From assembly GCF_023507705.1 (NCBI RefSeq), contig NZ_JALBGD010000004.1, positions 248,001 to 312,000 of the forward strand: DNA of 64,000 nucleotides. Direction: 5' to 3'. Within the stretch, counting starts at the first letter, position 1, and each line of letters opens with the position of its first letter. Of this stretch, positions 552 to 19,976 are shown piece by piece. Origin of the DNA: Stappia sp. WLB 29. GTDB taxonomy: Bacteria > Pseudomonadota > Alphaproteobacteria > Rhizobiales > Stappiaceae. A model generated the notes under the pieces. The model worked only from the letters and a program-made list of their open reading frames with translations, did not search any database and was not told the origin of the DNA. The position numbers and the translations under genes are program-made.

Positions 552-1430
552 ATGCCGAGCCTGAAGGACTTACGAAACCGGATCGCCTCCGTTAAGGCGA
601 CGCAGAAGATCACCAAGGCCATGCAGATGGTGGCCGCGGCGAAGCTGCGCCGCGCCCAGGAGGCGGCCGAGGCCGCGCGGCCCTATGCGGAACGCATGGA
701 GGCCGTCCTCGCCAACCTCGCCAGTGCCTTCGAGGGCCGGGACGATGCTCCGCGCCTCCTCGCCGGCACCGGCAAGGATGACGTGCACCTCCTGCTGGTC
801 GCGACCGCGGAGCGCGGCCTGTGCGGCGGCTTCAACTCGTCGATCGCCAAGCTGGCGCGCGAGCGTGCGAAGTCGCTGCTCGCGCAGGGCAAGACGGTCA
901 AGATCGTCTGCGTCGGCAAGAAGGGCTTCGACTCCCTGAAGCGTGATCTCGGCTCGCACGTCGTCAAGACGATCGAGCTGCGGCATGTCAAGCGCGTCGG
1001 GTTCGAGAATGCCGAGGAGATCGGCACTCTGGTCCGCGAGATGTTCGACGCGGGCGAGTTCGACGTCTGCACCCTGTTCTATGCGCGGTTCCAGTCGGTG
1101 ATCAGCCAGATCCCGACCGCCCAGCAGCTCATTCCGGCGACCTTCGGCGAGGCGGCGAAGGTCGCTCAGACCGACGCGGTCTACGAGTACGAGCCGGACG
1201 AGGGCGAGATCCTGGCGGATCTGCTGCCGCGCAACATTTCGGTGCAGATCTTCCGCGGGCTTCTGGAAAATGCGGCGTCCGAGCAAGGTGCGCGCATGTC
1301 CGCGATGGACAACGCCACGCGCAACGCCGGTGACATGATCAACAAGCTGACGCTCAACTACAACCGTCAGCGGCAGGCTCAGATCACCAAGGAGCTGATC
1401 GAAATCATTTCGGGCGCCGAGGCGCTCTGA
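552..1430 (+). CDS. atpG: ATP synthase F1 subunit gamma
   Basis: This 292-residue protein is the central rotor stalk of F1 that turns inside the alpha/beta hexamer. The N-terminal helix ([20 protein letters not shown], then [16 protein letters not shown]) and the C-terminal helix ([20 protein letters not shown]) are the two conserved coiled-coil segments of the family, and [11 protein letters not shown] is the usual central motif. Length matches the family. It lies 33 bases after atpA and 24 bases before atpD, so it is almost certainly cotranscribed with them. Confidence 0.98.
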
Positions 1431-9086: not shown

Positions 9087-10191
9087 GCCGGCATCGCGGT
9101 ACAGAGCCGCTAACCGCCTAAACAAGACAGCCGATTCGGAGGCTTCCGAAGGCTTCCGGCTTGGCAGGAAAACTATTTGTTAATCAATATGTTAAGATCA
9201 TGTTGAGGAATGCCCCGGTCGGCTCTCGCCGTTTCCGGCCTGTCAAGATTGAGGCTGAGATTTTTTTTTTAGTGCACAGCAAAATGGGGTCAGGCGGGGC
9301 TTTTGCGTCGAAAACGCATTGAGTCAAAACGCATTCCAAATGACATCCGCCGCCTCTCCCCTCAGGCATCGCTGACCCCCCGCGCACTGCGCTATCGAAA
9401 TGGCTGGCGAGTCTGTTGCAGCCCTTGTGGGGGCTGTGTATGGTCTTGGTTATCGGGCGCTCGCCCGGGCAAAATCGCAAAACTAAGAAGACAGAGGCCT
9501 CCAGGAGAGCAATGTTATATTTGTGCGAAAAATATACATTGAATGGTAGTCGCGCGTTCTCCTGGCGGCATTTCAGTAGTGTACCGGATCGGCGGCTGGC
9601 GTATCTGAAGTCGTAGGTCGGAAAGACTATCTCTCCCTGCAAGAGCTGGATGTTTTTGACTTGCCGTGTCCTTCGGCAGGCCGGGATTTCTGCGTCTTGT
9701 GCGGTGCCGTTTGCGGAAACGGCAAGAGGCCGGCGCCTGCCGTGAGCACCCAGTGTGGTCTGCCTGCGACGGTTGCACCCAGGGAAGTCGAAGACTGGAA
9801 AGAGGGGCTTGACGATGACTGCACAATCTACTTTCTGTGCCGCTCCGGCGTGGCTGCCATCGAACGGCGTCACGCCCTGATCCATCCCTGCGGGCCGTCG
9901 AGCGCGTAAGCGCCGAACGGCCACATCGCATCTAGCGACCCGCCCGTATCCGGGCCGATCAATCGCCCGCGCGACTTGCAGGAGGTTGAGGCAACGGGAA
10001 GCCCCAAGGGGAAGAAGAGATTTCAAGCCGGGCGGGCAGCGCTCATCCGGTGAGGATACCTGTCGCTCTTGCGACACCTGTCGGGCCGATGATGGCCCGC
10101 GACAAGACCGCGCCGAAACGGCGAAAACACAACAGGTGCAACGGGTTCTGCGGCGGCGGAGCATCTCGTTGACCATTTGGAGGCGATCACG
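9087..10191 (+). other. Non-coding stretch upstream of dnaA with AT-rich and hairpin elements
   Basis: About 1.1 kb without a convincing gene. It contains an AT-rich patch near 9170-9200 (TTAATCAATATGTTAAG), a run of ten T at 9261-9270, and a nested hairpin at 9501-9565: outer arms CCAGGAGA/TCTCCTGG enclose an AT-rich stem, AATGTTATATTT (9511-9522) with AAATATACATT (9530-9540). The open frames here (up to about 80 residues) have no recognisable family or ribosome site. GANTC sites at about 9133, 9318 and 9409 could be CcrM targets. I see no cluster of DnaA boxes, so I do not call an origin. Confidence 0.6.
10061..10104 (+). other. Twin hairpins in the dnaA leader region
   Basis: TGTCGC/GCGACA (10061-10066 with 10071-10076, loop TCTT) is followed at once by a second hairpin, TGTC plus GGGCC (10079-10087) with GGCCC and GACA (10094-10104). 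Both reuse the TGTC(G)/(C)GACA arms, so the outer arms could also pair with each other. They lie 88-131 bases before the dnaA ATG. A role in dnaA mRNA control is inference. Confidence 0.4.
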
Positions 10192-11670
10192 ATGAACTTG
10201 CAGGAACTGCCGGCATCCGAGACCGCAGGAATGGATCATTGGACGCGCGTCAAAAAGCGCCTGCGGGCCGAGCTTGGCGAAGACGTCTTCACCAGCTGGT
10301 TTGCGCGTGTCGATCTGGAGGACCACTCCGACGGCACCGTGCGACTTTCGGTGCCGACCCGGTTCCTCAAGCAGTGGATCCAGTCCCACTACCGCGAGCG
10401 CCTGATGGGTCTTTGGAAGCATGAGTGCGACGACGTGCATCGCATCGAGTTGACCGTGCGCGGCGCGGTGCGTGCCCGCCCCGTCGTCGGCGGCGTGGCG
10501 CGTCCCGTACCGGCGGCCCCGCGGTCTGCCCAGCAGATCAAGCTCGTCGAAAACTCCCCCTCGGCCAGGGCCGAGACAGTCTCGTCCGGCGTGGCGCGGC
10601 CTGCGGCTGCGACCCCGCGCGAGGGCTCCGACGGTCTGGAGGGGGCTTCTCTCGACCCGAAATACACATTCGACTCCTTCGTGGAGGGGGAGTCCAACGC
10701 GTTGGCGCTGGCCGCCGCGCGTCAGGTCGCGACCGCTGCGGCAGTGACCTTCAACCCGCTCTACATCCATGCCCCGGTCGGTCTCGGAAAGACGCATCTG
10801 ATGCAGGCCGTCGCCTCGGCGGCGCAGGCCTCGGGCCGCCGCGTGCTCTACCTCACGGCCGAGCATTTCATGTACCGCTTCGTCGCGGCGCTGAAGGCCC
10901 AGTCCGCCCTTGCCTTCAAGGACACGCTGCGCACCATCGACCTGCTGCTGATCGACGACATGCAGTTCCTGCACGGCAAGCAGGTCCAGCAGGAATTCTG
11001 CCACACGCTCAACGCGCTGATCGACGGTGCCCGCCAAGTGGTGGTCGCTGCCGATCGTCCGCCGGCAGACCTCGAGACGCTCGACGACCGCATGCGCTCG
11101 CGTCTGGCCGGTGGCCTCGTCGTGGCGATTTCCGAGCCCGATTTCGGCCTGCGCCGCGCCATTTTGACCAACCGCATCGATTGCGTGCGCCGTTCGCATG
11201 CCACCTTCGCCGTGCCGGAGGCCGTGCTCGACTACGTCGCTCGCCATGTCGGCAATTCGGGCCGCGACCTCGAGGGCGCGCTCAACCGCCTGATCGCCCA
11301 CAACCAGCTCACCAACCAGCCGGTGACGCAGGAGATGGCCGAGGCGACCTTGCGCGACCTGGTGCGCAATACCGAGCCGCGGCGGGTCAAGATCGAGGAC
11401 ATCCAGCGCATCGTCTCCAAGCACTACAACGTGTCCAAGGCCGATCTCCTGTCGGCCCGCCGCACCCGCACCATCGTGCGTCCCCGGCAGATCGCCATGT
11501 ATCTGGCCAAGGCCCTGACCCCGCGCTCGCTGCCCGAGATCGGCCGCCGCTTCGGCAACCGCGACCACACAACCGTGCTCCACGCGGTTCGCAAGATCGA
11601 GGACCTCGCGCGATCCGACACCACGCTCGCGCAGGAGCTCGACCTCCTGAAGCGGATGCTGGACGCCTGA
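10192..11670 (+). CDS. dnaA: Chromosomal replication initiator DnaA
   Basis: This 492-residue AAA+ protein opens the origin and loads helicase. Domain I is at the N-terminus ([17 protein letters not shown]), domain II is a variable linker to about residue 160, and domain III has Walker A ([11 protein letters not shown]) and Walker B ([10 protein letters not shown]). Domain IV ends with the DnaA-box recognition signature [18 protein letters not shown]. The first Walker A residues are AP rather than the more common GG. GGAGG lies 8 bases before the ATG at 10192; an in-frame TTG at 10177 is unlikely. It is followed by dnaN 178 bases on. Confidence 0.98.
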
Positions 11671-15017: not shown

Positions 15018-17543
<2,526 letters not shown>

Positions 17544-17587: not shown

Positions 17588-17616
17588 TTGACAAAGCGGG
17601 CCGCCCCCCCTATACG
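17588..17616 (+). promoter_or_regulatory. Strong sigma-70 type promoter for rpsL
   Basis: A perfect -35 TTGACA (17588-17593) and -10 TATACG (17611-17616) are 17 bases apart. The predicted transcript starts near 17623, 36 bases before the rpsL start. It lies 44 bases after gyrB, so rpsL need not depend on gyrB transcription. Confidence 0.78.
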
Positions 17617-17658: not shown

Positions 17659-18030
17659 ATGCCGACAATCAACCAGTTGGTTCGCCTGAACCGTAAGCCG
17701 ACCGTCAAGAAGTCCAAGACCCCCGCGCTGGGCGGTAACCCGCAGAAGCGCGCGGTTTGCACCCGCGTCTACACCACGACGCCGCGCAAGCCGAACTCGG
17801 CTCTTCGTAAGGTCGCGCGTGTTCGCATGACCAACGGCAATGAAGTCACCGCCTACATTCCGGGCGAGGGCCACAACCTGCAGGAGCACTCCGTGGTGCT
17901 GGTGCGCGGCGGCGGCCCGAACGACCTTCCGGGCGTGCGCTACCGCGTGATCCGCGGCGTGCTCGACACCCAGGGCGTCAAGGACCGTAAGAAGCGCCGT
18001 TCGCTCTACGGCTCCAAGCGTCCGAAGTAA
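17659..18030 (+). CDS. rpsL: 30S ribosomal protein S12, divergent at both streptomycin-resistance positions
   Basis: This 123-residue protein is S12 throughout, including [23 protein letters not shown] and [10 protein letters not shown]. Two near-universal lysines are changed: position 43 is Arg ([10 protein letters not shown], codon CGC) and position 88 is Asn ([10 protein letters not shown], codon AAC). These are the E. coli K42/K87 sites (mature numbering) where streptomycin-resistance substitutions arise. Asp89, the RimO methylthiolation site, is kept. Residues 8-33 also diverge from the usual alphaproteobacterial form. The gene stands alone with its own promoter and terminator, without rpsG, fusA or tuf. 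No clear Shine-Dalgarno sequence precedes the ATG. It may be the only S12 or a second copy. Confidence 0.95.
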
Positions 18031-18072
18031 GCTTCCAGCCGGGTCCCGCCCGGCAGGGAATTGTCTTGTCGA

Positions 18073-18111
18073 GGCCTTCCGGACACCCGTCCGGGAGGCC
18101 TTGATGTTTTT
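18073..18111 (+). terminator. Intrinsic terminator of rpsL
   Basis: GGCCTTCCGGA (18073-18083) pairs with TCCGGGAGGCC (18090-18100), with one G-U pair and a 6-base loop, followed by TTGATGTTTTT. It lies 42 bases after the rpsL stop and separates it from the convergent photolyase gene. Confidence 0.85.
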
Positions 18112-18137: not shown

Positions 18138-19679
18138 CTAGAGCGTGCCGGCCTCGAGCCGCTTCAGGCTGCGCGCGGCGGCGGCGAGGTAGTCCTTGCG
18201 GGTCTCTGCCGACATGCGGTCCCAGGTCCGATAGGGCTGGGCAAGGCGCGGGTTGGCGCCGAGCTTCTCCCGGTTGCGGATCAGGAAATCCCAGTACAAG
18301 GCATTGAAGGGACAGGCATTTTCGCCGGTGCGGTCCTTCACGTCGTACCGGCAGTTGCGGCAGTGGTCCGACATCTTGTTGATGTAGTTGCCGCTCGCCG
18401 CATAGGGCTTGGAGGCGAGCAGCCCGCCATCGGCGAACTGGCTCATGCCGACCGTGTTCGGCAGTTCCACCCATTCGAATGCGTCCGCATAGACCGCGAG
18501 ATACCACTCGTGCACCTGGTGCGGGTCGATGCCGGCGATCAGCGCGAAATTGCCGGTCACCATCAGCCGCTGGATGTGATGCGCGTAGGCCTCGTCCCGG
18601 GTCTGGCCGACGACCTCGCGCAGGCAGGCCATCCTGGTCTCTGCGCTCCAGTAGAACTCCGGCAGGGGCCGGCTCGCGCCGAGATGGTTGGCGCCGGCAT
18701 AGTCCGGCATCTTCAGCCAGTAGATGCCGCGCACATATTCCCGCCAGCCGATGATCTGGCGGATGAAGCCCTCGGCCGAGTTGAGCGGCACGGCACCGTC
18801 CACAAACGCTTGCTCCGCCTTGCGGCAGACCTGCAAGGGGTCGAGCAGGCCGGCATTGAGGTAGGGCGACAGGACCGAGTGGTAGAGGTACTTTTCCCCG
18901 GTCAGCATGGCGTCCTGGTAGTCGCCGAAACGGGGCAGGGCCTCGTCGATGAAGCGGTCCAGCGCCGCCTCGGCGTCCTCGGTGGTGACGGCGAAGCGGA
19001 ACGGGGTGAGCCTGCCGAACCCGTCCGGAAACTGCGCCTCGACCAGGTCCAGCACCGCCCGCGTCGTCTCGTCCGGCTCGAAGGCCAGCGGGCGCGGCAT
19101 GAAGAGGTCGGTGTCCGCCGGCTTGCGGTTCTCGGCGTCGAAGTTCCACCTGCCGCCGACGGGCTCGTCGCCTTGCATCAGCAGTCCGGTCTTGCGCCGC
19201 ATCAGGCGGTAGAAATACTCCATCCGCAGCTGCTTGCGGCCCTCCGCCCAGGCGCCGAACTCCTTGGCACTGCAGAGGAAACGGCTGTCGGGCAGGATGT
19301 CGACCGGCAGGTTATGCGCGCTCTCTAGCCCGCGCAGGATCTCCATCACCCGCCACTCGCCCGGCTCCGTCACCCGGATGCGCAAGGCATCGTGCCGCGC
19401 CACCGCCCGGCCGATCTCGCCCGCAAAGCTGCCGGTGTTGTCCGGATCGTCGAGCTCGACATAGTCGACCTGCCAGCCGGCCCGGCGCAGGGCGGCGGCG
19501 TGATGGCGCATGGCGGCCAGGATGAAGGCGATCTTCTTGCGGTGATGCGGGACGTAGGTCGTCTCCTCGGCGACCTCCATCATCAGCAGTCGTGCATCGC
19601 TCTTGTCGACGTCCCGGAGCGCCGAGAGGCCGAAGGAGAGCTGGTCGCCGAGGACCGGAATGAGGACAGGTCTGGTCAT
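18138..19679 (-). CDS. Iron-sulfur bacterial cryptochrome/photolyase (PhrB-like, (6-4) type)
   Basis: This 513-residue protein matches the FeS-BCP photolyases of Agrobacterium and Rhodobacter. The N-terminal domain begins LIPVLGDQLSFGLSAL, and the FAD domain includes FIRQIIGWREYVRGIYWLK. The four [4Fe-4S] cysteines are present: one in MACLREVV and three in HCRNCRYDVKDRTGENACPF. Such enzymes repair UV (6-4) photoproducts with FAD and visible light, and some act as light sensors. The start MTRPVL is chosen by family length; its ribosome site is weak. It lies downstream of the GcrA-like gene on the same strand but beyond a hairpin. Confidence 0.92.
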   Translation of the reverse strand: MTRPVLIPVLGDQLSFGLSALRDVDKSDARLLMMEVAEETTYVPHHRKKIAFILAAMRHHAAALRRAGWQVDYVELDDPDNTGSFAGEIGRAVARHDALRIRVTEPGEWRVMEILRGLESAHNLPVDILPDSRFLCSAKEFGAWAEGRKQLRMEYFYRLMRRKTGLLMQGDEPVGGRWNFDAENRKPADTDLFMPRPLAFEPDETTRAVLDLVEAQFPDGFGRLTPFRFAVTTEDAEAALDRFIDEALPRFGDYQDAMLTGEKYLYHSVLSPYLNAGLLDPLQVCRKAEQAFVDGAVPLNSAEGFIRQIIGWREYVRGIYWLKMPDYAGANHLGASRPLPEFYWSAETRMACLREVVGQTRDEAYAHHIQRLMVTGNFALIAGIDPHQVHEWYLAVYADAFEWVELPNTVGMSQFADGGLLASKPYAASGNYINKMSDHCRNCRYDVKDRTGENACPFNALYWDFLIRNREKLGANPRLAQPYRTWDRMSAETRKDYLAAAARSLKRLEAGTL

Positions 19680-19819
19680 GCCTTGCGGGGATGCGCTGGA
19701 CGAAAAGATGGTCTTTTCGGTTACGCAGCCCGGCTTTGTGCGGATCTCGGCCCGGCGCGCGCAAGGGCGGGACGGGAACAGTCTGCCGCGTCCCCCATCC
19801 CGCCCGCGGGGACAAACGA

Positions 19820-19852
19820 AAGACGCCCGGTCGGTATCCCGCCGGGCGTCTT
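19820..19852 (-). terminator. Inverted repeat after the GcrA-like gene
   Basis: AAGACGCCCGG (19820-19830) and CCGGGCGTCTT (19842-19852) form a perfect 11-bp stem with an 11-base loop. Read on the minus strand it lies 125 bases past the miniprotein gene and ends in TCTTTCGTTTG, a modest T-rich tail. Confidence 0.6.
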
Positions 19853-19976
19853 CATCAAACTGGCTTTGCGAATTTCGAGACGGATTTTGCAAAATCCCGT
19901 CTCAATTTTCGCTGATTTTGCGACGGCTCGCGCAATCTCGCTCCGCGCGAAGCGGGGACAAGTGCCGGCGTCGGTA

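Follow-up and report, generated by a model that had tools for sequence, protein, structure and literature searches.

Marine bacteria of the genus Stappia very probably depend on a single, essential and relocated uS12 gene, rpsL, whose product has a remodelled decoding-centre face and would render the ribosome insensitive to streptomycin. Few proteins are as conserved as S12, and few gene orders as conserved as rpsL–rpsG–fusA–tuf. The gene lies in a 64,000-nucleotide stretch of Stappia sp. WLB 29 DNA (the window), belonging to a 4.75-Mb genome in 37 contigs, 99.91% complete. According to the explanation proposed here, the ancestral rpsL situated between rpoC and rpsG would have been lost in Stappia, and the S12 in use would come from a stand-alone gene behind gyrB with a promoter-like site of its own. 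The decoding-centre face would have been remodelled as a set, with Arg43 accompanied by Gly86–Pro87–Asn88, Met57, and Arg96. Being the sole S12, the protein would be built into every 30S subunit; it still has the PNSA loop and Asp89 and still matches the S12 family. Both streptomycin-linked lysines being absent, the ribosome would be intrinsically insensitive to the drug, and decoding accuracy presumably has been rebalanced by the linked changes.

The reading frame comprises 123 amino acid codons and a stop codon (Table 1). Its product scores 202.6 bits against the bacterial S12 equivalog TIGR00981 (cut-off 112.95) over residues 1–123 and matches the Pfam S12/S23 family. Translation and the printed DNA confirm the full-length bacterial S12 with Arg43 (CGC) and Asn88 (AAC) reported in the preliminary description, substitution of Lys43 and/or Lys88 being a mark of streptomycin-resistant S12, and both Ala32 and the divergent N-terminal stretch mentioned there proved real. 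Beyond these, residues 86–87 (Gly-Pro), 57 (Met), and 96 (Arg) are altered, the loop reading GG-GPN-D versus the usual GG-RVK-D; Asn11, too, occurs in none of the 90 full-length S12 of other genera used for comparison. The PNSA loop (P45, N46, S47, A48) and D89 are invariant in a 10-row alignment. All of 95 non-Stappia loci, which are those most similar to the query and not a random sample, have K43 and RV(K/R) at positions 86–88; the earlier statement that nearly all bacteria carry lysine at both sites holds at 43 and is weaker at 88 (85 Lys, 10 Arg).

Table 1. Features of the rpsL locus in the window and S12 genes in other records (coordinates refer to the window unless a record is named; the 95 non-Stappia loci are the most query-like ones)
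Feature	Record	Coordinates	Strand	Basis or remark
rpsL, sole uS12 gene found in the genome	window	17659..18030	+	translation, TIGR00981, Pfam, genome search
Codon 32, Ala	window	17752..17754	+	Gly in 90/90 full-length non-Stappia S12
Codon 43, CGC, Arg	window	17785..17787	+	Lys in 95/95 non-Stappia loci
Codon 57, Met	window	17827..17829	+	Leu in 90/90; Met also in g39 and G334
Codons 86–88, GGC CCG AAC, Gly-Pro-Asn	window	17914..17922	+	Arg-Val-Lys or Arg-Val-Arg in 95 non-Stappia loci
Codon 88, AAC, Asn	window	17920..17922	+	read from DNA
Codon 96, Arg	window	17944..17946	+	in 90 full-length non-Stappia S12: 76 His, 13 Lys, 1 Thr; g39 has Arg as well
gyrB, immediately upstream of rpsL	window	15090..17543	+	
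Promoter-like TTGACA-17-TATACG in the gyrB–rpsL spacer	window	17588..17616	+	sequence pattern
Hairpin resembling a terminator, with T tail, downstream of rpsL	window	18067..18106	+	1 found, shuffles mean 1.1; weak alone
Gene of a photolyase-related protein (DPRP family), convergent with rpsL	window	18138..19892	-	family match
Phage S12, R43, loop of the SVP/NRP type ending in Pro88	L220 (IMGVR_UViG_3300045141_000199)	787..1173		
Phage S12, R43, loop of the SVP/NRP type ending in Pro88	L222 (IMGVR_UViG_3300032954_000003)	10001..10390		
S12 of G334	L204	9408..9776		highly divergent, 68% best identity
S12 of G256, R43, otherwise canonical with normal loop, in the str operon	L161	1275..1643	-	0.9-Mb alphaproteobacterial genome

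R43, A32, and GGGPND are found in all 14 Stappia genomes, which excludes sequencing error, and chance, as the source of the unusual codons. The 14 proteins are at least 96.7% identical to one another, and the record of Stappia indica SN13-18 contains an S12 of the same type. Their genes evolve under purifying selection, with a median pairwise dN/dS of 0.027 (91 pairs), the level expected for an essential gene, as rpsL would be here. A protein search gave one S12 match in the source genome and one per genome in 14/14, three of these being single contigs, and the PF00164 profile likewise one in each of the 14 (control positive in 13/14). The preliminary description had left two branches open, and the one in which this is the only S12 holds for the source genome and all 14 Stappia genomes searched. 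The other, a specialised or acquired second S12 acting beside a canonical one, could appeal to the odd location and residues of the gene, but is refuted, no other S12 having been found in the 14 genomes and none at the str operon in 12/12 loci; we leave it practically no chance of being right.

The remaining genera of the family keep the canonical protein. An S12 match was obtained in 72 of their 73 genomes, at 73–76% identity to the Stappia S12, and all 16 sequences read have K43 and GGRVKD, so that in the alignment across the family, which had been suggested for positions 43 and 88, R43/N88 in 14/14 Stappia genomes stand against K43/K88 in these 16. The latter are 96–100% identical among themselves, while Stappia averages 74.5% to them. 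Length, PNSA loop, Asp89, C-terminus, and protein family are common to both kinds of S12. Neighbouring core proteins are not anomalous, identity between Stappia and four genomes of other genera being 83–92% for S7, 85–93% for EF-G, and 84–87% for RpoC. The one family member with no S12 match (G071, listed as 100% complete, about 200 contigs) probably has an assembly gap there.

In Stappia rpsL is situated directly downstream of gyrB, from which it is separated by a 115-bp spacer. From recognition of the translations we take this neighbour to be gyrB, and the genes preceding it to be dnaA, dnaN, and recF. TTGACA-(16 to 18)-TATA(C/G)G occurs upstream of rpsL in 14/14 Stappia genomes; a consensus promoter scan of the spacer, which accepts only T as the final base of the second hexamer, gave 0 promoters. 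The str operon itself is found as rpoC, rpsG, and fusA together, without an S12 match in the 3.5 kb read, at all 12 Stappia rpsG loci, rpsG not having been found in two of the 14 genomes (85% and 89% complete). Its promoter-leader region is recognisable by eye when compared with a relative keeping rpsL. No remnant of rpsL was detected there by tblastn with a canonical S12 at E 1e-3 in the 12 loci, and in the gap, looked at in three genomes, as well as over the whole G010 stretch, the matches obtained were at chance level (best E 0.063).

Intrinsic streptomycin insensitivity, as had been predicted for the case of a single S12, is the best reading of these data by analogy with known rpsL alleles. 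The Stappia S12 is altered at the same two positions as the K43R and K88R alleles (K42R and K87R in E. coli), Arg43 being the classic low-cost streptomycin resistance residue, as stated in the accessible parts of two reports (PMC4182516, PMC10521367). Passages of the same sources describe extremely high streptomycin resistance conferred by K43R in Agrobacterium fabrum, a carrier of strB (PMC10521367), and, for K42R in Klebsiella, a streptomycin MIC exceeding 1,024 micrograms/ml at little cost to growth (PMC4182516). Unlike these alleles, the Stappia variant is natural, present in 14/14 genomes, combined with N88, G86, P87, M57, and R96, and located outside the str operon. Decoding may be unusual too, as the preliminary description predicted; the effects seen in published work are those of single changes in an otherwise canonical S12, and the Stappia protein differs at several neighbouring residues together.

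Besides the published K43/K88 alleles, the prediction is backed by one Stappia isolate, another strain than the source of the window. S. stellulata Ss-F1 from Nematostella shows resistance to nalidixic acid and, at 100 mg/L, to streptomycin, with kanamycin, chloramphenicol, and ampicillin being absent from the resistances listed in the accessible part of the report (PMC4557100). Such a profile would fit an S12-based, streptomycin-specific trait, though a modifying enzyme instead of S12 could account for it; it contradicts the refuting case considered earlier, of relatives with this single S12 yet sensitive to streptomycin. Insensitivity is thereby predicted across the whole genus. It seems doubtful to us, on balance, that what the residues are adapted to is decoding or another ligand of the decoding centre, streptomycin resistance being incidental or due to another gene; in favour of this, the six linked changes exceed the needs of resistance, for which K43R alone is enough elsewhere. 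The literature searched contained no streptomycin MIC series for Stappia, and that combining Stappia with ribosomal protein S12 or rpsL no published account of its S12.

Natural S12-based streptomycin resistance as such is already known. In Sphingopyxis, Sphingomonadaceae, and Erythrobacteraceae, RpsL with Arg87 (E. coli numbering) has been proposed to confer it, according to the accessible text of the report (PMC4741004), and Arg88 occurs in 10 of the loci compared here. Like the Stappia S12, this is a natural alphaproteobacterial substitution at a streptomycin position; unlike the Stappia S12, the protein is canonical but for one conservative change.

The same residue set was found in a second alphaproteobacterial genus, g39, which is new. 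A DNA pattern for T-P-x-K-P-N-x-A with codon 43 not starting in A, and thus blind to Asn, Thr, and AGR-coded Arg at 43, was run on 385 alphaproteobacterial genomes and gave 14 places in 13 genomes, of which four are S12 genes: those of the source genome, G114, G334, and G256. G114, a member of g39, has an S12 with R43, M57, GGGPND, and R96, and each of the three g39 genomes carries one S12, all of this type; of nine genomes from the remaining genera of that family, seven gave an S12, canonical in all seven. In both g39 surroundings read (G114 and G829) the gene is located away from rpsG, and in the G829 str operon rpoC is followed by rpsG without rpsL. The S12 of G334, a 0.6-Mb alphaproteobacterial genome, has R43, M57, and GGGPKDLSG and lies inside the str operon. 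A pattern for GGGP(N/K)D, run on 398 genomes of the phylum, G334 being outside the draw, detected only the source genome and G114.

Every K43 S12 whose loop was read has RV(K/R) at 86–88; of the six R43 lineages, five have a different loop (Stappia, g39, G334, and two phages) and one, G256, does not. Given the biased sampling, this association should be taken as a pattern without statistical weight. Nor is the coupling absolute, G256 having R43 without the loop change. Loss of the str-operon rpsL together with a coupled residue set in two genera would surprise specialists. A genus with changed S12 and gene order, and with lysine at neither classical streptomycin position, offers a natural experiment on which decoding-centre changes are jointly tolerated, and since g39 shares the residue set, epistasis of residue 43 with loop 86–88 can be tested. 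For Stappia and g39, these data also suggest that counter-selection based on rpsL, and genotyping at K43/K88, could be misleading.

The modification of Asp89 was considered as well. No RimO match above the TIGR01125 cut-off was obtained in 14/14 family genomes (4 Stappia and 10 others; the control passed in 6/14), and methylthiolation of Asp89 may be absent in the family. Lower-scoring matches to the RimO profile may be MiaB-like. Genera with canonical S12 being equally without an above-cut-off match, loss of RimO was rejected as a companion trait specific to Stappia. With a view to compensating 16S rRNA changes, RF00177 matches were obtained in 2/14 genomes and matches to a 16S DNA query in 1/12, no Stappia among them, a result that is uninformative on the organisms with the control positive in only 9/14.

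Two origins of the relocated gene have to be weighed. An S12 of the R43/GGGPND type may have been acquired from outside the family and have displaced the native gene, the same type replacing rpsL in g39, which is a serious possibility although it falls short of an even chance. Alternatively, to which we would give very nearly an even chance, rpsL may have undergone duplication or relocation inside the Stappia lineage, followed by loss of the str copy and fast evolution of the relocated one, the likeness to g39 being convergence on a compatible residue set. Capture is favoured by the sharing of R43/M57/GGGPND/R96 between S12 genes that lie away from the str operon in two alphaproteobacterial genera belonging to different families, by the 88% identity of Stappia and g39 over residues 42–123 versus 79% to an own-family S12, and by an integrase-core transposase about 300 bp from the S12 gene in G114. 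Convergence would require both lineages to have left the str operon and to have arrived at the same six residues (43, 57, 86, 87, 88, 96), each changing by about 25% a protein whose 16 sequences from other genera are 96–100% identical. On the other side, over residues 1–41 Stappia and g39 are only 54% identical versus 66% for Stappia and its own family, the C-terminal stretch of the Stappia S12 resembles that of its own family, and the operon copy of G256 has R43 alone. Moreover, a donor was not found in the searches made: judged by identity alone, the best matches reach 77.2% in plasmid records and 71.5% in phage records, and among named genome contigs the closest S12 from another genus, a K43 protein of an alphaproteobacterium, reaches 79%.

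Trees of S12 comprise 76 to 123 columns, which are too few, and their outcome shifts with the choice of columns and rows. When every column is kept, one side of a branch (97/98) holds Stappia, g39, and G334, and grouping with the own family is rejected both for Stappia (p 0.0017) and for g39 (p 0.020), which argues for capture; but Stappia and g39 alone form no clade there (not rejected, p 0.14), and the program warns that long branches, those of G334 and g39, meet in this tree. With the trait columns removed, Stappia and g39 are left apart, a point in favour of a vertical origin, their union being neither recovered nor rejected in three sets (p 0.36, 0.26, and 0.19). Whether Stappia grouped with its own family is rejected then varies among these sets (p 0.0084, 0.17, and 0.22), and g39 with its own family is not rejected (p 0.32, 0.20, and 0.11). 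The values 0.26, 0.17, and 0.20 come from 53 rows, without L154 and without L072, L090, L097, and L103, which are not of length 123. Because the outcome varies with columns, rows, and long branches, capture and convergence both appear to stand, and the trees do not tell them apart.

Two IMG/VR contigs, of 89.8 kb (L220) and 82.8 kb (L222), encode S12 with R43 and the loops SVP and NRP; they are the only S12 among 12 stretches of viral contigs detected with two R43 patterns, the other 10 not being S12. The 11 kb read of L220 comprise 16 tRNA genes, a release-factor-like protein with an RF-1 domain, and a tail-fibre-like protein, and the 18 kb read of L222 an endolysin and a tail-like protein, rpsG being absent from both stretches. 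The L220 protein, the one of the two scanned, has no PHROG match, and the DNA pattern for GGGPND gave 0 matches in viral contigs. The phage proteins resemble the Stappia S12 in having R43 and a changed loop, any relation between the genes being conjectural. A mobile alternative S12 with R43 and a remodelled 86–88 loop, perhaps phage-carried, might replace the native gene, the str-operon rpsL being lost afterwards and Stappia and g39 representing independent captures; we consider this an unlikely scenario. Virus-encoded ribosomal proteins, to which these two phage genes would add an R43 S12 with a changed loop, have been described, S12 not being mentioned in the accessible main text (PMC6375957); neither is it in that of another report on phage ribosomal proteins (PMC13157829), and the available passage on phage translation in a further one names S4, S1, S21, and L7/L12 (PMC7162821). 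A literature search combining uS12 with phages encoding ribosomal proteins found nothing relevant. A K43 pattern detected four stretches in viral contigs, all four S12, of which one lies beside rpsG and fusA and one is cut off at 39 residues. Two further viral contigs, of 95.7 kb (L237, 11123–11515) and 193 kb (L238, 4788–5186), encode S12 of the K43 type; both proteins carry an insertion close to the C-terminus, and the stretches read gave no match to rpsG.
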